DNA of 64,000 nucleotides from Bryobacterales bacterium (lineage in GTDB: Bacteria > Acidobacteriota > Terriglobia > Bryobacterales > Bryobacteraceae). This document shows, piece by piece, positions 5,440 to 31,056 of this stretch (positions are counted from its first letter, which is position 1; every line of letters begins with the position of its first letter). The position numbers and the translations under genes are program-made. The stretch is taken from the NCBI GenBank assembly GCA_019261985.1, contig JAFAQY010000019.1:1-64000 (forward strand), written 5' to 3'. The notes beneath the pieces were generated by a model. The model did no database searches. It was not told the DNA's origin and was given only the letters and a program-made list of their open reading frames with translations.

Positions 5440-6219
5440 TTGGTCCGAAATCTGATACACTACTTTCAAAGAGGGATCTACTTACTTTTGCGCTTTCCTG
5501 TAACCATCTTGGCTTTCAGTCTTTTAGCGGCAATCGCGGCCGGCGGCCCGACCGACGACGCCAACCTGGAAGTTGTAAATAGGTACCTGGATGCGTCGAA
5601 AGTACAGCAACAGGCCCTGCGCGGCGTGCAAATGGAGGTAAGCATTGACGCAAAGCTTCCGCGGCTAGAAAAACAGGGCCGCATGAGAGGTCTGCGGTTC
5701 GTTTCAAGGCTCGGCAAGATCACCTACCGGAGGCTCGGCTTTTCCGGCGACACCACGATTAAGCAGGAAGTTATCGCACGTTACCTGACGCTCGAAACTG
5801 CCGAGCACGATGAGAAATCGGTCGCGATTACTCCACAAAACTATAAATTCCAATTAAAGGCCAAGCTTACCCAGCGCGATCGCCACATCGACATCTTTCA
5901 GCTCAGCCCCAAGAAAAAAAGGGTCGGGTTATTCAAGGGCGAACTCTGGGTGGACGCGGACTCTGGAATGCCCGTGCGGATCTCCGGCGAATGGGTGAAA
6001 AGCCCCTCGGTGTTTGTAAAGAAAGTAGAATTCGTGCAGGAATTCGAGCTTCAGGACGGAGTTTCTGTTCCTTCACACATCGAGAGCATGGTGGATACGC
6101 GCGTGGCGGGCCGAGCTGAGCTTAGCATTAATTTCACCAATTTTACCCACGCGGACGACGACGTAGACGATTCGGCGGACGCTTCAAATCATATTGCCGA
6201 GGAAACACCCGGCCACTAG
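5440..6219 (+). CDS. Exported LolA-like/outer-membrane lipoprotein-sorting-like protein
   Basis: About 259 residues with an N-terminal hydrophobic export segment (LLRFPVTILAFSLLAAIAA) and a beta-rich body whose alternating pattern (GELWVDADSGMPVRISGEW) resembles LolA/LolB-fold proteins of acidobacteria. No catalytic motif is seen. The tail is rich in Asp and may be flexible. The start is TTG at 5440, or TTG at 5488 behind GAGGG with long spacing. It lies 36 bp upstream of hpnJ on the same strand, so it may belong to the hopanoid cluster, where lipid trafficking would make sense. The family call is tentative. Confidence 0.55.
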   Translation: MVRNLIHYFQRGIYLLLRFPVTILAFSLLAAIAAGGPTDDANLEVVNRYLDASKVQQQALRGVQMEVSIDAKLPRLEKQGRMRGLRFVSRLGKITYRRLGFSGDTTIKQEVIARYLTLETAEHDEKSVAITPQNYKFQLKAKLTQRDRHIDIFQLSPKKKRVGLFKGELWVDADSGMPVRISGEWVKSPSVFVKKVEFVQEFELQDGVSVPSHIESMVDTRVAGRAELSINFTNFTHADDDVDDSADASNHIAEETPGH

Positions 6220-6255: not shown

Positions 6256-7734
6256 TTGAGCATGAGAACTCTGTTTTTGAATCCGCCTTCCTTTGACGGA
6301 TTCGACGGCGGCGCGGGATCGCGCTGGCCATCCACGCGCGAGATCGAGTCGTACTGGTATCCGGTATGGCTCTGTTATCCCGCGGGAATGCTGGAGGATA
6401 GCAAGGTACTTGACGCGCCTCCACACGGAGTCTCGATCCAGCAATCGATCGAGACAGCCAAGGATTTTGAACTCCTGATTTTGTACACGTCCTCGCCGGG
6501 GTTTCACGTCGATGTGAAGATCGCGGAGATGATGAAGGATGCCAACCCGAAATTGCAGGTGGCATTCGTCGGACCTCCGGTCACAATCGAGCCGGAAAAG
6601 GTTCTGAACGCATCCAAGGCGATCGATTTTATCGTCCGGCGTGAGTTCGATTACCAGATTGCGAATTACGCGAAAGGAACGCCGTTCTCCGAGCTTCCCG
6701 GAGTAAGCTATCGCCAAAACGGCACGAACGTTCACAACCCCGAAGCTCCGTACATTGAAGATCTCGACGCGCTGCCGTGGGTCTCCAAGGTTTATAAGCG
6801 GGACCTGGATTTCCGCCGTTACAACGTTCCGTTTCTACTGAATCCGTACGTTTCCTTCTACACGACGCGTGGCTGCCCGGCAATGTGCACATTCTGCCTG
6901 TGGCCGCAAACCCACTCCGGCCATCGCTGGCGCTTGCGCTCAGTCCAGGATATTGTCGGCGAGGTTAAGTACACGCTCGAAAACTTCCCGGGGCTGAAGG
7001 AGATCTTTTTCGACGACGACACCTTCAATTACCGCAAACAGCGTACGATCGAGCTCTGCGCCGAGTTGAAAAAGCTCAATTTCACGTGGTCCTGCACGTC
7101 GCGCGTCACCACGGATTACGACACCCTCAAGGCCATGAAGGAAGCCGGATGCAGGCTGATGATCGTCGGTTATGAAACCGGCGATCCGCAGATTCTTAAA
7201 AACATGAAGAAAGGCGCCACGGTGGATATGGCGCTTCGGTTCACCGAAAACGCGCACAAGCTGGGCTTGGTGGTTCACGGCGACTTCATCATCGGCATGC
7301 CGGGCGAAACGCGCGAGACCATCCGCAATACTATAAACTTCGCGAAGAAGCTCGACGCCGAAACGATCCAGGTTTCTATAGCTCACGCGTATCCAGGCAC
7401 CGAATTCTATGAATACGCGAAACAGAACAATCTCGTCCAACTCAACATGGCGGATGAGCAGGGCCACCAGTTGCCGAATGTGGTCTACCCCGGAATTCTA
7501 GATCGCGCGGAGATGATCGATTGGGTGGAGCGTTTCTACACCGAATATTATTTCCGCCCAAGAGCGGCCTGGCGCATCGTGCGCAAGGCAATCTTCGACG
7601 GGCATGAGCGCAAGCGGCTGTATGGCGAAGCCAAGACCTACCTAAAGCTGCACAAGAAGCGTAAGAAGTACGTCGCGGATTATCGCGCCACCGGCGTCGA
7701 TCCCTCCCTTCGCGGCGCGCAAGAGCGCGTTTAG
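6256..7734 (+). CDS. hpnJ: Hopanoid radical SAM protein HpnJ
   Basis: A 492-residue B12-binding-type radical SAM enzyme. The 4Fe-4S ligands are C207, C211 and C214 (CPAMCTFC). The N-terminal ~150 residues form a cobalamin-binding-like domain starting with the HpnJ hallmark PSFDGFDGGAGSR. The radical SAM barrel carries the FFDDDTF and GMPGETRETI blocks typical of HpnJ. The known role of HpnJ is conversion of the glucosamine head group of bacteriohopanetetrol (BHT) into the cyclitol ether. A TTG start at 6256 has the best spacing to AAGGGAG (6 nt); the ATG at 6262 is the alternative. The EamA genes and hpnI follow within 0-4 bp. Confidence 0.88.
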   Translation: MSMRTLFLNPPSFDGFDGGAGSRWPSTREIESYWYPVWLCYPAGMLEDSKVLDAPPHGVSIQQSIETAKDFELLILYTSSPGFHVDVKIAEMMKDANPKLQVAFVGPPVTIEPEKVLNASKAIDFIVRREFDYQIANYAKGTPFSELPGVSYRQNGTNVHNPEAPYIEDLDALPWVSKVYKRDLDFRRYNVPFLLNPYVSFYTTRGCPAMCTFCLWPQTHSGHRWRLRSVQDIVGEVKYTLENFPGLKEIFFDDDTFNYRKQRTIELCAELKKLNFTWSCTSRVTTDYDTLKAMKEAGCRLMIVGYETGDPQILKNMKKGATVDMALRFTENAHKLGLVVHGDFIIGMPGETRETIRNTINFAKKLDAETIQVSIAHAYPGTEFYEYAKQNNLVQLNMADEQGHQLPNVVYPGILDRAEMIDWVERFYTEYYFRPRAAWRIVRKAIFDGHERKRLYGEAKTYLKLHKKRKKYVADYRATGVDPSLRGAQERV

Positions 7735-7737
7735 CCT

Positions 7738-8142
7738 ATGCCGGAGGACGTTCGCCTGCGGTGGAAGACGCGCGTGTTCCTTCTGCTTGTCATACTTAGC
7801 CAGCCGCTTGGCAACCTCTTGCTGACCTTGGGCATGAAGCATCGCGACCTTAGTTCGCCGCTGAAATACATTGAGGCGATCTTCACGCCTTATGTAGTCA
7901 CGGGCATTGTTCTGCTGATGGTGTGGTTTCTCTCGCGAATCGCGCTGCTCAGTTGGGCTGACTTGAGCTATGTCCTCCCTTTAACGGCAGTCGGCTACAT
8001 CATGACGGCGATGATCGGGCGCTTCATACTGAACGAGCAAATAAGCTGGAAGCGCTGGTTCGGCACGCTGCTAATCGTCGCGGGGACGTTGGTTGTAAGC
8101 ATGACCGCGGCCCGGACTTCGATAGAGGAGCAGGAGGCGTGA
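7738..8142 (+). CDS. EamA/ArnE-like four-helix half-transporter (first of pair)
   Basis: A 134-residue inner-membrane protein with four predicted hydrophobic segments (about residues 14-32, 50-69, 75-97, 102-120). It has the DMT/EamA half-repeat pattern, including the ADLSYVLPLTAVGYI and RFILNEQISWKRW motifs near the end. Length and topology match ArnE/ArnF and SMR-type dimeric transporters. It sits 3 bp after hpnJ and overlaps the second half-transporter by 4 bp, indicating a heterodimer. The genomic place suggests a flippase for a hopanoid or polyprenyl-sugar intermediate; that is inference. Confidence 0.72.
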   Translation: MPEDVRLRWKTRVFLLLVILSQPLGNLLLTLGMKHRDLSSPLKYIEAIFTPYVVTGIVLLMVWFLSRIALLSWADLSYVLPLTAVGYIMTAMIGRFILNEQISWKRWFGTLLIVAGTLVVSMTAARTSIEEQEA

Positions 8143-8501
8143 CGGCTTGGGCGTTGGTTGGCTTAATCGTGGTTGGAACGGTTGCCGGGGATTGCCTGCA
8201 AAGCTTCGAAATGAAGCGCCACGGCGAGGTTCGATTTCGCGGCAGCGGATTGCGACGTCTTATCCGCACTCTGGCCGTGAAGAAGTGTCTCATCCTGTCG
8301 ATTGTGTGCATGGCAATTTCATTTTTTGCCTTCATCAAACTGCTGTCGCAAGCCGACCTGAGCTTCGCTGTCCCTGCATCGGCGGGAAGTTTCGTATTGG
8401 AAACCTTCGTCGCCCGCTTTATTCTTAGGGAGCGCGTGGATGCAAAACGCTGGCTAGGCGCCGCACTGGTGGCCGGCGGCGTGGCTCTGTTAGCTGTGTG
8501 A
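8139..8501 (+). CDS. EamA/ArnF-like four-helix half-transporter (second of pair)
   Basis: A 120-residue four-helix EamA-type protein, related to its upstream neighbour: both have the ADLS(Y/F) motif, a later RFIL(N/R)E helix boundary and a KRW basic turn. It starts with GTG inside the previous stop and ends inside the hpnI GTG start, so the three proteins are translationally coupled. The pair architecture resembles ArnE/ArnF, which moves an aminosugar-polyprenyl lipid across the inner membrane. The substrate here is unknown. Confidence 0.72.
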   Translation: MTAWALVGLIVVGTVAGDCLQSFEMKRHGEVRFRGSGLRRLIRTLAVKKCLILSIVCMAISFFAFIKLLSQADLSFAVPASAGSFVLETFVARFILRERVDAKRWLGAALVAGGVALLAV

Positions 8502-9571
8502 TCCTGGAGATCGCCGCGGCGGTCGCGGCTCTGTACCAGCTTTTTGCGATTATTGCCTGCTTCACCTTTCGCCGCGCGGCAGATGCCCGGCTTTCGCCGT
8601 CTGCCGCTGCGTCCGTTTTGAAACCGATCGCCGGTCTCGACGACGATCTCCGGCCGGCGATCGAATCCCACTCCAAATTGCACGGCGAATATGAGTTGCT
8701 GTGCGGTGTTCGTTCACTCGCCGATCCGGCGGTGGCCCTGCTTCGTGAGTTCCCGCGCGTGGAAGTCGTCGAGTGCCGGACCCAGGCGGCGAACGGCAAG
8801 GTAGGGGTGCTGATCGACATGGTCCGTGCGGCCCGTCATCCAGTTCTTGTTGTCAACGATGCCGATATTCGCGTCCCGTCCGACTATTTGGAGCGCGTGA
8901 CCGCGCCGCTGGCGGATCCGAGTGTCGGCATCGTCACTTCTCTGTATCGCGCGGAAGCATCGACGTTCGCCGCGCGTTTCGAAGCCTTGGGCATCGCCAC
9001 GGATTTCGCGCCGTCCACCTTGGTTGGGTGGCTGATAGGGCTGGAGGAATTCGCGGGCGGCTCAACGCTGGCATTCCGCCGAGCCGATTTGGAGCGGATT
9101 GGCGGCTTTCAGGCTATCGGAGATTATTTGGCTGACGATTATCAACTCGGCCTCCGGATTCGCAAGCTGGGATTGAGATGCTGCTTGAGCTCGACGATCG
9201 TTTCGACCCACTTGGGAGGCGGGTGGCGCGATGTATGGCTACACCAGCTTCGGTGGGCGCGGACCATACGCGTATCGAATTTTCCCGGCTATCTGAGCCT
9301 TCCGGTGACGTTCGCCACGCTGTGGGCGGTCGCGGCGGCGACGGCGGGCGCTTGGCCGATCGCGGTCATCGTTTTATGCGCGCGCTTAAGCATGGCCATC
9401 ATTGCCGGTTGGATGGTTATGGGCAGCCGCGACGTACTCCGGCTGTGGTTCCTGGTTCCGCTGCGCGATCTGTTCGCCTCGGCGGTCTGGGCCGCCGGAC
9501 TATTCGGCAACACGGTCGTGTGGCGAGGCCGGCGGCTCAGGCTGAACCGCGAAGGGCTGCTGAGGTTTTAG
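8498..9571 (+). CDS. hpnI: Hopanoid glycosyltransferase HpnI
   Basis: A 357-residue GT2 enzyme of the ceramide-glucosyltransferase-like type. An N-terminal membrane helix precedes the catalytic domain. Visible motifs are VLKPIAG, the metal-binding VVNDADIRV (DxD-like), LADDYQLG and the processive-type HQLRWARTIR. Three or more hydrophobic helices follow (about 265-340). The known role of HpnI is transfer of N-acetylglucosamine to bacteriohopanetetrol at the inner membrane. The GTG start overlaps the upstream stop. The next steps (HpnK, then HpnJ) are encoded at 30271 and 6256. Confidence 0.85.
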   Translation: MILEIAAAVAALYQLFAIIACFTFRRAADARLSPSAAASVLKPIAGLDDDLRPAIESHSKLHGEYELLCGVRSLADPAVALLREFPRVEVVECRTQAANGKVGVLIDMVRAARHPVLVVNDADIRVPSDYLERVTAPLADPSVGIVTSLYRAEASTFAARFEALGIATDFAPSTLVGWLIGLEEFAGGSTLAFRRADLERIGGFQAIGDYLADDYQLGLRIRKLGLRCCLSSTIVSTHLGGGWRDVWLHQLRWARTIRVSNFPGYLSLPVTFATLWAVAAATAGAWPIAVIVLCARLSMAIIAGWMVMGSRDVLRLWFLVPLRDLFASAVWAAGLFGNTVVWRGRRLRLNREGLLRF

Positions 9572-27563: not shown

Positions 27564-28322
27564 TTGCTCGATTTCCTAAAACCTCCAGTGGAGGCGTTTC
27601 AGGATTTCTTCTTTCTGAGCGGCCGCGCAATCAAGAATATCTTTCGCAGTCCCCACTACTCGGACGACATCTTCCAGCAGATGGACATCATCGGCGTCGG
27701 TTCTCTGCCCATCGTGATGCTCATCGGGTTATTCAGTGGGGTGGTGATGACCATGCAGATGGCGCGCGCCTTGCAGCAGTATGGCGCTCAGGGCCAGGTG
27801 GGCCAGATTGTATCAATCGCCCTGGTCCGCGAGTTAGGTCCCGTGCTGACCGCCGTCTTGGTCGCCGGCCGTAACGCGAGCGGCATCGCCAGCGAGCTCG
27901 GCTCAATGAAGGTAACCGAACAAATCGACGCGATGCGCGCGCTGGGGACCGATCCCATACAGAAGCTGGTAACGCCCCGCCTTATAGCCACCAGCTTCGT
28001 GTTGCCGCTGCTGACAATCATCGCCGATTTCATCGGGCTGATCGGAGGCGCCGTAATTGCGATCGCGCTGCTGCACATCACGGCCTCGCAATACTGGACC
28101 AGCGCATGGAAGGCGCTGGAATATAACGATTTAGTGCAAGGGCTTCTGAAACCTTTTGTGTTTGCTATCGTCATAGCGCTGGTTGGCTGTTTCTACGGCA
28201 TGCGGACCACGGGCGGCACTCAGGGGGTCGGCCGCGCCACTACCACCGCCGTTGTCGTGGCCTCGGTTTGGATTTTTGTGCTGACGTCGATGATCACCCG
28301 CGTTTTCTTGTACTACAAATGA
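27564..28322 (+). CDS. mlaE: Mla-type ABC transporter permease
   Basis: A 252-residue MlaE/YrbE permease with five to six hydrophobic segments. The family signatures are ALVRELGPVLTAVLVAGR and GSMKVTEQIDAMRALG, plus the final GGTQGVGRATTTAVV block. In MlaFEDB-type systems it forms the transmembrane core that moves phospholipids between inner membrane and periplasm. It starts with TTG behind CGGGGGA at 8 bp. The stop overlaps the mlaF ATG by 4 bp; mlaD and hpnK follow. No mlaB or mlaC gene is present. Confidence 0.92.
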   Translation: MLDFLKPPVEAFQDFFFLSGRAIKNIFRSPHYSDDIFQQMDIIGVGSLPIVMLIGLFSGVVMTMQMARALQQYGAQGQVGQIVSIALVRELGPVLTAVLVAGRNASGIASELGSMKVTEQIDAMRALGTDPIQKLVTPRLIATSFVLPLLTIIADFIGLIGGAVIAIALLHITASQYWTSAWKALEYNDLVQGLLKPFVFAIVIALVGCFYGMRTTGGTQGVGRATTTAVVVASVWIFVLTSMITRVFLYYK

Positions 28323-29167
28323 CCCCGGATTCCTCGGTCGTCCGTTTTGAGGAAGTCAGCCTGCATTTCGGAGCAACGCCAGCCTTGGACGGGGTGTCAT
28401 TTGAAATGGGGGCAGGCGAGACCCGCATTTTGTTCGGAGCAGCGGGCAGCGGGAAGACCACCCTTCTGAAAGTCGCGATGGGGCTGATCCAGCCGGATTC
28501 CGGCCGAGTCTTTCTTTTCGGGCAGGATATTACGCGCCTTTCCGAAAGGCAGATGTTCGATCTCCGCGCGCGCGTGGGCATTTTATTTCAAGAAGGCGGC
28601 CTCTTCGATTCGCTCACCGTCGAAGAAAATGTCGCGTATCCGTTGCTGCATCAGCGCGCGCTTCAAGAACCGCTTGCGCACACGAACGGAGCCACCCGAA
28701 CCGTAGCCGACCGCGTGCAGGAGTCCCTGAACTTCGTAGAGCTTGGCCAAACGCTCGAGAAGTACCCCAGCGAGCTTTCCGGCGGAATGCGGCGGCGCGT
28801 TGGTATTGCTCGCGCGTTGGTGAGCGCTCCCGCTTTGTTGCTCTACGATTCGCCGACCGCCGGACTGGACCCGATTACTGCAAATCACATCGTCGCGCTG
28901 ATTTTGAAAGAACGCGAAGAACGAAACACGGCGACGATTGTGGTAACGCATCGCTACTTAGATGGGCATCTGATCGCGAACTTTCGCTACAATCCGAGCA
29001 GTGGGACTGTCGATCGGGCGTCGCGAGCACCAGGGAAAGCCGGACGCGTGACCACCAAATTCTTTGTTATGAGGGAGGGCCGCTTGGTCTTCCAGGGCTC
29101 GGAGGCGGAGTTGCAGGCCGCGACCGACCCATATGTACGGAAATTTCAGCGCCACGGAAGCGCCTAA
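28319..29167 (+). CDS. mlaF: Mla-type ABC transporter ATPase with Ser in place of catalytic Glu
   Basis: A 282-residue ABC ATPase. Walker A is GAAGSGKTT (40-48), the Q-loop LFQEGG, the signature LSGGM (153-157) and the switch His H211. Walker B reads LLLYDSPTAGLDP: the residue after D177 is S178 where most ABC ATPases have the catalytic Glu. After H211 an unusual ~30-residue insertion precedes the final FFVMREGRLVFQGS strand. Pairing with mlaE and mlaD makes the transport role secure. Whether ATP hydrolysis uses another base is open. Confidence 0.9.
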   Translation: MTPDSSVVRFEEVSLHFGATPALDGVSFEMGAGETRILFGAAGSGKTTLLKVAMGLIQPDSGRVFLFGQDITRLSERQMFDLRARVGILFQEGGLFDSLTVEENVAYPLLHQRALQEPLAHTNGATRTVADRVQESLNFVELGQTLEKYPSELSGGMRRRVGIARALVSAPALLLYDSPTAGLDPITANHIVALILKEREERNTATIVVTHRYLDGHLIANFRYNPSSGTVDRASRAPGKAGRVTTKFFVMREGRLVFQGSEAELQAATDPYVRKFQRHGSA

Positions 29168-29170
29168 AAA

Positions 29171-30268
29171 ATGCCGGCTTCAAGCAAAACGCGTTGGGCA
29201 CAGCTAAGAGTGGGTTTGATGGCGATTGCTGCCTTCATCATCCTTGCCTTCCTGATTTTTTTCATGGTGGGAAATTTGGGAGTTTTCAGGGAGAAAGCTA
29301 ACGTTTACACATTCATGAACGATGCTCAGTCCGTCGACGAGGGGTCGGACGTGCGGCTGAACGGAATTCTTATTGGAAAGATCAACAAAGTTGAGCTGTC
29401 CGGTTCCTCCGATCCTACCCGAGTGATCCGGATCGTGATGGAGGTCGACGACCAATATTTGGGCTCGATTCCGGTCGATTCTCAAGCCGGGGTGGGCGCG
29501 GCAAATATCCTTGGCACGAAGTTCATCAATATCAAAAAAGGCCAGGCGAGAGAGACGATTAAGGCGGGTGCGGAACTGCCGAGTTCCGTCACTCCCGAAT
29601 TACAAGACATTTTTGAACAAAGCTCATCCACGCTCGCGGCGCTTCAGCTCACAATCAAAAAGATAAACGACATCGTCAATACAGTGGAGAGCGGACGGGG
29701 CACGATCGGCGAGTTATTGGTCGACGACACGATGGCTAAGAAGCTGTTAGCGATACTCGACTCGGCTCAGGCAACGATCAACGAGGCCAACCACGTAGTG
29801 GCGTCCCTCAATTCCGACCAAAACAGCATTGGAAGGATTTTGCACGACAATAATGAGCTCTATGGGCAAGTGCATCAGGGCCTGACGAACATCAATGAAA
29901 TCATCGATAAAGTCAACAGCGGCAATGGCACGATCGCCAGGGCGCTGAATGATCCCGCGATTTACGATCAGGCCCGCGATTCCCTGATGCAACTCCACGA
30001 TATTCTGGCGGGGATTCAGGCCGGACAAGGCACGCTTGGGAAGGTCATCAAGAGCGACGAATTGCACGAGCAGGTGAAAGGCACTCTGGCGCAAGTAAAT
30101 ACGCTGCTGGATAAGATCAACAACGGCCAAGGCACGATTTCGCAGCTTCTTAACAATCCGTCGCTTTATGAATCTTTTGATGGAACCACGCGGGAAATGC
30201 AGGGCCTCCTGAAGGACTTCCGCGCCAACCCGAAAAAGTTTTTGCACATAAAGCTGGGGCTGTTCTGA
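29171..30268 (+). CDS. mlaD: MCE-domain lipid-binding protein
   Basis: A 365-residue protein with one N-terminal membrane helix (~13-35) and one MCE domain (~37-115; VDEGSDVRLNGILIGKI, then VGAANILGTKFINIKKG). A long helical C-terminal half is built of about four repeats spaced 45-50 residues. Each has a G-x-GTI(G/A/S)-type turn (GRGTIGELL, GNGTIARAL, GQGTLGKVI, GQGTISQLL) followed by an amphipathic helix. MCE proteins form hexameric rings that carry lipids across the periplasm; the repeats could build an elongated tunnel or coiled coil. It lies 3 bp after mlaF and 2 bp before hpnK. Confidence 0.9.
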   Translation: MPASSKTRWAQLRVGLMAIAAFIILAFLIFFMVGNLGVFREKANVYTFMNDAQSVDEGSDVRLNGILIGKINKVELSGSSDPTRVIRIVMEVDDQYLGSIPVDSQAGVGAANILGTKFINIKKGQARETIKAGAELPSSVTPELQDIFEQSSSTLAALQLTIKKINDIVNTVESGRGTIGELLVDDTMAKKLLAILDSAQATINEANHVVASLNSDQNSIGRILHDNNELYGQVHQGLTNINEIIDKVNSGNGTIARALNDPAIYDQARDSLMQLHDILAGIQAGQGTLGKVIKSDELHEQVKGTLAQVNTLLDKINNGQGTISQLLNNPSLYESFDGTTREMQGLLKDFRANPKKFLHIKLGLF

Positions 30269-30270
30269 AT

Positions 30271-31056
30271 TTGCGCACCTTCGTGGTGAATGCCGACGAC
30301 TTCGGCTTCACAACCGATGTCAATCGGGGCATCATTGAGGCATTCTCGAACGGAATCCTGACCTCAACCACGTTAATGGCTAATGGCGCGGCATTCGCGG
30401 ATGCGGTACGCCGCGCGAAGGAGCACCCGGGCCTGGATATCGGATGTCATTTGGTGCTGGTGGGCCAGCCGCCTTTCCCGCGAACGGTATCGCAACTTAT
30501 TCAAGCGGTAGCGCTAAAACGGATTCGTATTTACGAGGAGTTGTCGGCACAGGTGCGCCGTGTTGTCGATGCGGGATTGAGGCCGACCCATCTCGATACG
30601 CATAAACACACTCATCTGTTGCCTCCCGTGCTCGACGCCGTAGCGAGGATCTCGCAAGAATTTCGCATTCCGTTCGTCCGCCGGCCATTCGACTTTCCAC
30701 TTCAGACGGGAGGCATCGGCTGGAAGACCAGTACAGCTAACCGCGCTTTCGGTCTCATTCGCCGGCATTTTGAAAAAGTACTGCGCGCGCATCACTGCCG
30801 CTTCACCGATCACTTCGCCGGATTCCGGATCACGGGTCATTTCGACGCGGGGTCGCTAGCCGCTTTGATTCGCGCGCTTCCGCCCGGATCGACGGAGTTC
30901 ATGTGCCACCCCGGCTATTGCGACAGTGAGCTGGCGGCTGCGTCCACCCGTCTGAAGGAGAGCCGCGAAGCAGAGCTGCGCGCACTGACTGCCCCCGAGG
31001 TTCGCGCGGCGCTCAGCGAGGCGGCCGTAAGCTTGCGAAGCTTCGCGGAGATTTAG
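30271..31056 (+). CDS. hpnK: Hopanoid deacetylase HpnK (YdjC/ChbG-fold)
   Basis: A 261-residue YdjC/ChbG-family deacetylase. The metal site is visible: NADDFG (D9/D10), H60 (IGCHLVL) and the THLDTHKHTH cluster (107-115). MCHPGYCD near the end is also conserved. This variant matches the hopanoid-associated HpnK type, which removes acetate from BHT-N-acetylglucosamine to give BHT-glucosamine, the HpnJ substrate. It starts with TTG only 2 bp after the mlaD stop, so it is the last gene of the lipid-transport operon. A generic carbohydrate deacetylase is the alternative; the presence of hpnI and hpnJ in the window favours HpnK. Confidence 0.82.
   Translation: MRTFVVNADDFGFTTDVNRGIIEAFSNGILTSTTLMANGAAFADAVRRAKEHPGLDIGCHLVLVGQPPFPRTVSQLIQAVALKRIRIYEELSAQVRRVVDAGLRPTHLDTHKHTHLLPPVLDAVARISQEFRIPFVRRPFDFPLQTGGIGWKTSTANRAFGLIRRHFEKVLRAHHCRFTDHFAGFRITGHFDAGSLAALIRALPPGSTEFMCHPGYCDSELAAASTRLKESREAELRALTAPEVRAALSEAAVSLRSFAEI

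Follow-up and report, generated by a model that had tools for sequence, protein, structure and literature searches.

The window analyzed here, a 64,000-nucleotide stretch of contig JAFAQY010000019.1 from a Bryobacterales bacterium (assembly GCA_019261985.1), harbors an operon in which two small EamA-type genes, referred to as EamA1 and EamA2, lie between the hopanoid biosynthesis genes hpnJ and hpnI. The operon, all on the + strand, reads LolA-like gene, hpnJ, EamA1, EamA2 and hpnI-like gene:

5440..6219, + strand: putative periplasmic LolA-like gene, directly 5' of hpnJ, loosely supported
6256..7734, + strand: hpnJ, encoding a B12-binding radical SAM protein of the window type ('type 2'); TIGR03471, 748.1 bits, above the cut-off of 577.6
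7738..8142, + strand: EamA1, a four-transmembrane (TM) half of the small multidrug resistance (SMR)/EamA kind; PF00892, 29.3 bits; start 3 bp past the hpnJ stop
8139..8142, + strand: 4-bp stop/start overlap between EamA1 and EamA2 (GTGA), read from the sequence
8139..8501, + strand: EamA2, a four-TM SMR/EamA half; PF00892, 36.4 bits
8498..8501, + strand: 4-bp stop/start overlap between EamA2 and hpnI (GTGA), read from the sequence
8498..9571, + strand: hpnI-like gene for a GT21/GT2 glycosyltransferase; PF13506, 148.3 bits; TIGR03472, 285.9 bits

The first-pass annotation of this DNA had described two four-helix EamA-type genes starting 3 bp after hpnJ and translationally coupled to each other and to hpnI, and the coordinates, the Pfam matches and the four-TM models agree with that description. 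The overlap suggests that EamA1 and EamA2 are co-transcribed. In the homologous loci described below, a −4 overlap between the two halves is possible in 86 of the 117 pairs measured, and one between EamA2 and hpnI in 32 of the 58 measured pairs with hpnI at most 1.5 kb behind, both counts being biased toward overlap because the start nearest to the −4 arrangement was chosen. HpnI is the sole glycosyltransferase among the operon proteins scanned, and no hpnK lies inside the operon. Elsewhere, the window genome contains a squalene–hopene cyclase above cut-off, two further HpnI-like genes (contig C81, 333 bits, above cut-off; contig C93, 298.3 bits) and a single 22-bit HpnL match; it has one hpnJ above cut-off, the product of which shares 47–48% identity with type-1 HpnJ from three other Acidobacteria.

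Both small proteins score above the Pfam EamA gathering threshold of 28.2 bits. Their AlphaFold2 models contain four TM helices each (EamA1, 134 residues, mean predicted local distance difference test score 90.0; EamA2, 120 residues, 86.8), and the top PDB matches found by Foldseek for both models are the SMR transporters EmrE and Gdx, with a probability of 1.00 and modest E-values (0.027 at best for EamA1 and 0.0064 for EamA2; none at or below 0.001). Size, helix number and structural matches are thus those by which we defined the SMR fold (about 100–130 residues, four TM helices and a structural match to SMR transporters). The K+R charge biases of the two halves are of opposite signs: +2 for EamA1 and −11 for EamA2 in the window, with means of +3.1 (n = 62; positive in 58) and −5.4 (n = 63; negative in 62) among the homologs, and opposite signs within 53 of 57 pairs. 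From these biases, the N and C termini of EamA1 are predicted to be cytoplasmic, and EamA2 to have the opposite topology. The same calculation gives −1 for EmrE, −5 and +2 for ArnE and ArnF, and −4 and +6 for MdtI and a partial MdtJ. The hpn-linked halves therefore look like paired SMRs, that is, paralogs with opposite biases whose co-transcription is suggested by gene overlap; paired SMRs mostly have opposite biases, and lipid SMRs often have an Asn in place of the central Glu (PMC9574504). Indeed, Glu is found at the position of EmrE E14 in none of 62 EamA1 and none of 63 EamA2 sequences. EamA1 mainly has Asn (33), Ala (16) or Gln (7) there (Gln at position 22 in the window protein), EamA2 has Thr in 28 cases and Asn in only 3, and an Asp or Glu (position 18) follows four residues further on in all 63 EamA2 sequences. 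The replacement of the central Glu, often by Asn, is what characterizes the lipid-type SMRs.

The pair had first been likened to ArnE/ArnF, and the likeness is real in several respects. In E. coli, (i) ArnE and ArnF are also two adjacent SMR halves, encoded by genes that overlap by one base; (ii) their charge biases are opposite; (iii) they lack, as judged by eye, a Glu at the E14 position; and (iv) their genes adjoin those for a glycosyltransferase and a deformylase acting in an aminosugar lipid pathway. ArnE is also the closest of the SMR controls, scoring about 42 bits under both hpn EamA profiles, well above the others, ArnF included (with the EamA1 profile: ArnE 42, MdtI 20, EmrE 15, ArnF 13 and partial MdtJ 8 bits). 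Membership in the ArnE family, however, did not hold: EamA2 reaches 30.3 bits against a cut-off of 92 for the ArnE equivalog NF011625, and EamA1 is not listed. The gene order is also different, namely hpnJ–(hpnK)–EamA1–EamA2–hpnI, no ArnT-type transferase is present among the window operon genes scanned, and the likely cargo would be the hopanoid glycolipid itself and not a polyprenyl-phosphate donor. We therefore rejected the idea that the two genes are arnE/arnF orthologs within an Arn pathway, since the ArnE cut-off is missed and no other arn-type gene was found among the scanned operon proteins. As to the drug and guanidinium exporters EmrE and Gdx, the modeled four-helix fold is the same, but the hpn pair has lost the central Glu, and EmrE scores 15 bits where ArnE scores 42. 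Note that the EamA1 and EamA2 profiles cross-match once iterated, so that the names given to the halves come from gene order and from the tree described below.

How the pair is distributed was examined first in the Acidobacteria. An HpnJ search of 396 acidobacterial genomes gave 63 matches at E 1e-100, 60 of which are above cut-off, and 58 hpnJ loci (one per genome) were fetched in addition to the window. An EamA pair lies 3' of hpnJ, on the same strand, in 52 of these 59 loci, more than expected by chance given that a loose EamA profile search yields about 8 to 49 candidates per matching genome of several Mb. The linkage extends over acidobacterial families f1, f2, f11, f33, f51, f71 and f78. 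Loci L046 and L047, without a pair, have the other HpnJ type and an adjoining HpnL-like gene; L050, also with the other HpnJ type, ends 193 bp downstream, and an HpnL piece is found on another contig (L266). Less than 2 kb follows hpnJ in L067 and L103, whose genomes (G195 and G291) hold a pair on other contigs, that of G291 standing with hpnK and hpnI. The genome of L051 has a pair behind hpnK elsewhere (L268), and that of L083 has one in the same orientation as hpnJ, some 8 kb from it on a shared contig (L320). In a second set, the best 80 of 557 HpnJ matches, in which near relatives prevail for that reason, the pair is present in 70 loci (the second half being cut by the contig end in L161). 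It is missing from L116, L154, L168 and the cyanobacterial L170 and L171, and five more loci end within 300 bp; the loci nearest to the window in this set belong to Bryobacteraceae, Terriglobia and Bryobacterales metagenome-assembled genomes (MAGs). Altogether, 167 different HpnJ were collected, four groups of loci, including L181 and L265 (a single locus), being identical in HpnJ over the 400 residues compared: 119 have a pair, 10 a single EamA gene, 5 a full-length gene, 6 HpnL and 19 none of these, and 8 are cut by a contig end.

A true hpnK (above cut-off) stands between hpnJ and EamA1 in 8 of the 59 acidobacterial loci (L058, L062, L078, L079, L080, L082, L093 and L101), and in 7 of these hpnI follows EamA2 within the stretch. 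The pair can thus sit within complete gene sets for bacteriohopanetetrol cyclitol ether (pathway as in PMC12583986), and its co-occurrence with hpnK in these loci led us to reject the idea that it is a stand-in for a missing HpnK. A strict association with hpnI was rejected as well: in family f2 the pair follows hpnJ and hpnI is elsewhere, and hpnI lies within 1.5 kb in only 58 of the 117 pairs measured. Accordingly, the conservation proposed by the first-pass annotation stands for the Acidobacteria, where the pair is found mainly with hpnJ, hpnK or hpnI and not mostly with unrelated neighbors, provided that the partner is taken to be hpnJ or hpnK and not hpnI alone.

We then looked at whole acidobacterial genomes. 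The EamA1 profile has a match in every one of the 57 genomes whose window-type HpnJ is above cut-off (56 typed by motif, plus G226 with locus L272), the lowest best score being 122 bits, and also in G103, which has a partial hpnJ; no match was found in the three genomes with type-1 HpnJ or in G208 and G030, whose HpnJ is under cut-off. Among the 333 genomes without HpnJ match, 58 have some EamA1-profile match at E 1e-12 and only four reach 118 bits, all four as pairs (G215, G169, G201 and G074). No squalene–hopene cyclase was found in these four genomes, two of which are less than 90% complete, and no hpn profile match lies near their pairs; Pfam, applied to one or two neighbors each in G169 and G074, assigned no family in G169 and an outer membrane efflux protein in G074. 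Eight other hpnJ-less genomes, scoring 80–96 bits, all contain the cyclase, and in five of the six fetched a single EamA gene lies on the same strand beside hpnI and hpnK (L316, L318 and L324), hpnK (L315) or hpnI (L317), L314 having neither. The genomes of L316, L318 and L324, with hpnI–hpnK–single EamA clusters, the cyclase and no hpnJ match, would be expected to make bacteriohopanetetrol glucosamine without cyclitol ether. In family f24, where the singles score lower, the EamA gene is unlinked and no cyclase was found in the two genomes checked. The charge bias of single EamA proteins is near neutral, from −1 to +2 for 16 of them (15 beside hpn genes, plus that of L314) and +1 for three unlinked ones, as is that of EmrE and as expected for dual-topology homodimers.

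Second pairs also occur in genomes with an hpn-linked one. In the window genome, the second pair (L306, 9413–10143) adjoins a full-length EamA gene and a methyltransferase gene, and appears from the tree of EamA halves to be a copy of the hpn-linked pair; that of G257 adjoins a Usp gene, and in G370, G233 and G329 an HpnI copy is found roughly 3.6–5.4 kb from the second pair, gene calls around the unlinked pairs being crude. When 90 EamA halves were placed in a tree (134 columns; parts of it are weak, and the five E. coli controls are unsurely placed), EamA1 and EamA2 formed two branches, with Shimodaira–Hasegawa-like approximate likelihood ratio supports of 92 and 99. The unlinked pairs of the window genome (contig C101), G257, G370/G233, G215, G169 and G074 branch inside these two clades, those of the window genome, G257 and G370/G233 being neighbors of the hpn-linked pairs from related genomes. 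Nested as they are in hpn-linked families, the unlinked pairs seem for the most part to have arisen by later copying. The single EamA proteins fall in neither branch, which fits one gene later doubled, although the order of the forks is not firm.

The HpnJ tree has 58 rows, for which 18 of the 124 pair rows were kept and the 8 contig-cut loci excluded. All 18 pair rows, together with 8 rows without any of the genes sought, form one branch with a support of 100; the other 32 rows comprise 11 without such genes, 10 with a single, 6 with HpnL, which form one branch (99), and 5 with a full-length gene, which also form one branch (100). Labels cluster on this tree more than in every shuffle, a result that near relatives make easy to obtain. 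The tree is a better guide than our type 1/type 2 labels, which rely on a crude motif that fails for 10 of 30 rows from the Desulfobacterota, the label given here to the phylum of a deltaproteobacterial MAG.

These 30 rows are the genomes with HpnJ above cut-off in a set of 297. Two of their hpnJ loci have a pair (L245 and L265), one has HpnL (L240), ten have a single four-TM EamA gene after hpnK and five a longer DMT-type gene after hpnI. The latter were called by our own profiles (48–61 bits) and by length, and are weak in Pfam (for L249, EamA at 21.5 bits against 28.2; for L250, no match); a 23-bit HpnL match beside the full-length DMT gene of L251 was left out as too weak. In cyanobacteria, HpnJ is present in 28 of 292 genomes and 20 loci were fetched: L343 has a single EamA gene on the opposite strand, and L350 (6667–8479) has four EamA halves, two per strand, between hpnJ and hpnI. 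Among 20 plasmid records with an HpnJ match, three of which are from Lawsonia (35% identity, probably another protein), we fetched three proteobacterial loci; all have HpnL, and EamA was not found there. EamA is absent from all six HpnL-bearing loci (three plasmid, two acidobacterial, one from the Desulfobacterota). HpnL is annotated as a lysylphosphatidylglycerol synthase domain protein in the plasmid loci L200 and L202, L201, which is unannotated, having been read by our own profiles; the HpnL profile used here derives from the two acidobacterial loci.

Taken together, these data point to EamA1/EamA2 as a dedicated flippase for glycosylated bacteriohopanepolyol, a reading to which we assign a probability of roughly 0.6. 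A lipid-type flippase is the best account because it explains both the co-conservation with hpnJ, hpnK and hpnI and the anatomy of the two halves, as well as the presence of an EamA gene with hpnI or hpnK in the absence of hpnJ and its absence where HpnL stands. According to this model, EamA1 and EamA2 would pair in antiparallel fashion within the inner membrane as an SMR-type heterodimer; HpnI (and HpnK) and HpnJ would make a sugar-bearing hopanoid at the cytoplasmic face, either glucosaminyl-bacteriohopanetetrol or its cyclitol-ether product; and the pair would move it to the periplasmic leaflet, from which other factors would carry it onward. A hopanoid–glycolipid flippase is also what the first-pass annotation had proposed; the acidobacterial linkage and the lipid-SMR anatomy speak for it, while heterodimer formation, transport, substrate and direction are what we infer from them.

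Several observations weigh against this reading. Within the window genome, the operon HpnI is under the NCBIfam cut-off for TIGR03472 (285.9 against 310 bits), and HpnK (TIGR03473, cut-off 232.6) is matched best by two fragments scoring 88.9 and 77.1 bits within 30274–31053. In L116, the pair is absent while hpnJ and hpnI stay. Pairs of the same type without adjoining hpn genes are found in the window genome (its second pair), on contig C14 of G257 and in G169, G201, G215 and G074. Neither EamA nor HpnL was found at 12 of the 30 Desulfobacterota loci (a 25-bit match in L244 being counted as none), nor within the stretch at 18 of the 20 cyanobacterial loci (L347 ending about 100 bp past hpnJ), so that the function is not always encoded nearby. 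Finally, the two acidobacterial HpnL calls are under the TIGR03476 cut-off (151.7 and 111.7 against 195.65 bits), which none of 66 genomes passes, and lower-scoring HpnL-like genes exist elsewhere in pair-bearing genomes, including G265 and G291. The replacement of EamA by HpnL is therefore a pattern and not a rule, and a strict 'HpnL or EamA' rule was dropped.

Alternatively, the pair could flip another lipid, such as un-glycosylated bacteriohopanepolyol or a polyprenyl-phosphate sugar, and be merely housed in the operon. ArnE/ArnF, of which ArnE is the nearest SMR control, do move a polyprenyl-phosphate sugar (PMC9574504), and some genomes in which the cyclase was not found carry unlinked pairs. 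Moreover, an HpnI paralog of the window genome has an epimerase gene and a PMT_2 gene of the GT-C type as neighbors (L045, 8703–12954), so that a second glycolipid route may also draw on HpnI-like enzymes. We nevertheless consider this alternative unlikely, as a pair, single or full-length form follows hpnJ, hpnK or hpnI in two phyla and HpnI has no other glycosyltransferase beside it in the scanned operon. Ordinary export of a small metabolite or a cationic compound, by a general SMR/EamA efflux system that hitch-hikes in the operon, seems quite unlikely: the EamA family is broad and the fold matches are to EmrE and Gdx, but these are the SMRs with solved structures, the E14 Glu is missing from every EamA1 and EamA2 sequence examined, and the association is kept across all seven acidobacterial families named above. 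A role as membrane scaffold or accessory subunit of HpnJ/HpnI devoid of transport activity, which would fit the tight translational coupling and the steady adjacency to hpnJ even with hpnI elsewhere, is improbable, since opposite charge biases belong to transporters, as do the DMT forms, single or full-length, seen at such loci.

If EamA1/EamA2 is indeed a flippase for glycosylated bacteriohopanepolyol, other lineages probably rely for the same job on a full-length DMT protein, on HpnL or on a homodimer of a near-neutral single SMR subunit. One may go further and propose, tentatively and with more doubt than confidence, that glycosylated-hopanoid flippases come in four exchangeable forms (single SMR, SMR pair, full-length DMT and HpnL), with HpnL as the proteobacterial version and the LolA-like protein of Bryobacterales carrying the lipid onward in the absence of HpnN. 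HpnL (TIGR03476, lysylphosphatidylglycerol-synthase-like) resembles the pair in standing in hpnI/hpnJ/hpnK clusters where EamA is not found; it differs in belonging, by annotation, to another family, and its six loci are on a separate branch of the HpnJ tree. It occurs within the hpn cluster of an acidophile (PMC8886135), and its role is described as not established (PMC12583986); the pattern reported here would give it a testable one. HpnN, an RND protein, is the only transporter to which PMC12583986 is seen to assign a role with hopanoids, HpnM being a possible helper. It shares hopanoid transport with the proposed function of the pair but is from another superfamily, and no HpnN match was found at E 1e-10 in the window genome.

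In the open-licence literature on hopanoids combined with EamA, flippase, hpnL or small multidrug resistance, no title or abstract start among those listed proposes a hopanoid flippase role for EamA, in agreement, at that level, with the earlier suggestion that such a role is undescribed. An EamA-like gene is mentioned within a hopanoid cluster of Leptospirillum, with no role given in the part of the article at hand (PMC12654047). Acidobacterial hopanoid genes have been studied, the SD1 and SD3 genomes being reported to lack hpnK (PMC5462960); a term search of that article found neither 'EamA' nor 'transporter'. The pair may bear on how sugared hopanoids made at the cytoplasmic face reach the outer leaflets, and a concrete candidate flippase can now be named at 119 different hpnJ loci. 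In addition, SMR proteins occur in one pathway both as singles and as pairs, and their charge biases agree with theory.

The LolA-like gene preceding hpnJ is less well defined. PF17131 (LolA_like) scores 17.1 bits in the window protein (E 0.0044; gathering score 30) and 32.6 bits in L119, the other four of five homologs scanned being below 30; the best PDB match of the family profile is a putative outer membrane lipoprotein-sorting protein (E 0.0012). The TTG start and the signal peptide were assigned by eye. Homologs are present at 28 hpnJ loci (counting L061 and L107, whose HpnJ are identical), 26 of them ending at most 150 bp 5' of hpnJ, and in 23 of the 45 named loci among L104–L151 having at least 900 bp upstream. 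Thus, a LolA-like gene right before hpnJ recurs in many Bryobacterales, and its product is a possible periplasmic hopanoid carrier in a genome without HpnN match.

Two other gene arrangements were noted. In a Scytonema MAG (L171, 11547–14180), a window-type hpnJ is followed by two HpnK-type genes, one on each strand, and neither EamA nor HpnL was matched downstream. In the window, 20 kb 3' of the operon, genes for an ABC ATPase, an MlaD-domain protein and a YdjC-family protein lie in series (28268–31056); the last (30271–31056), which is the best HpnK-like protein of the genome, belongs to the YdjC family with 225 bits, and the row is perhaps a lipid-transport cassette with a deacetylase.

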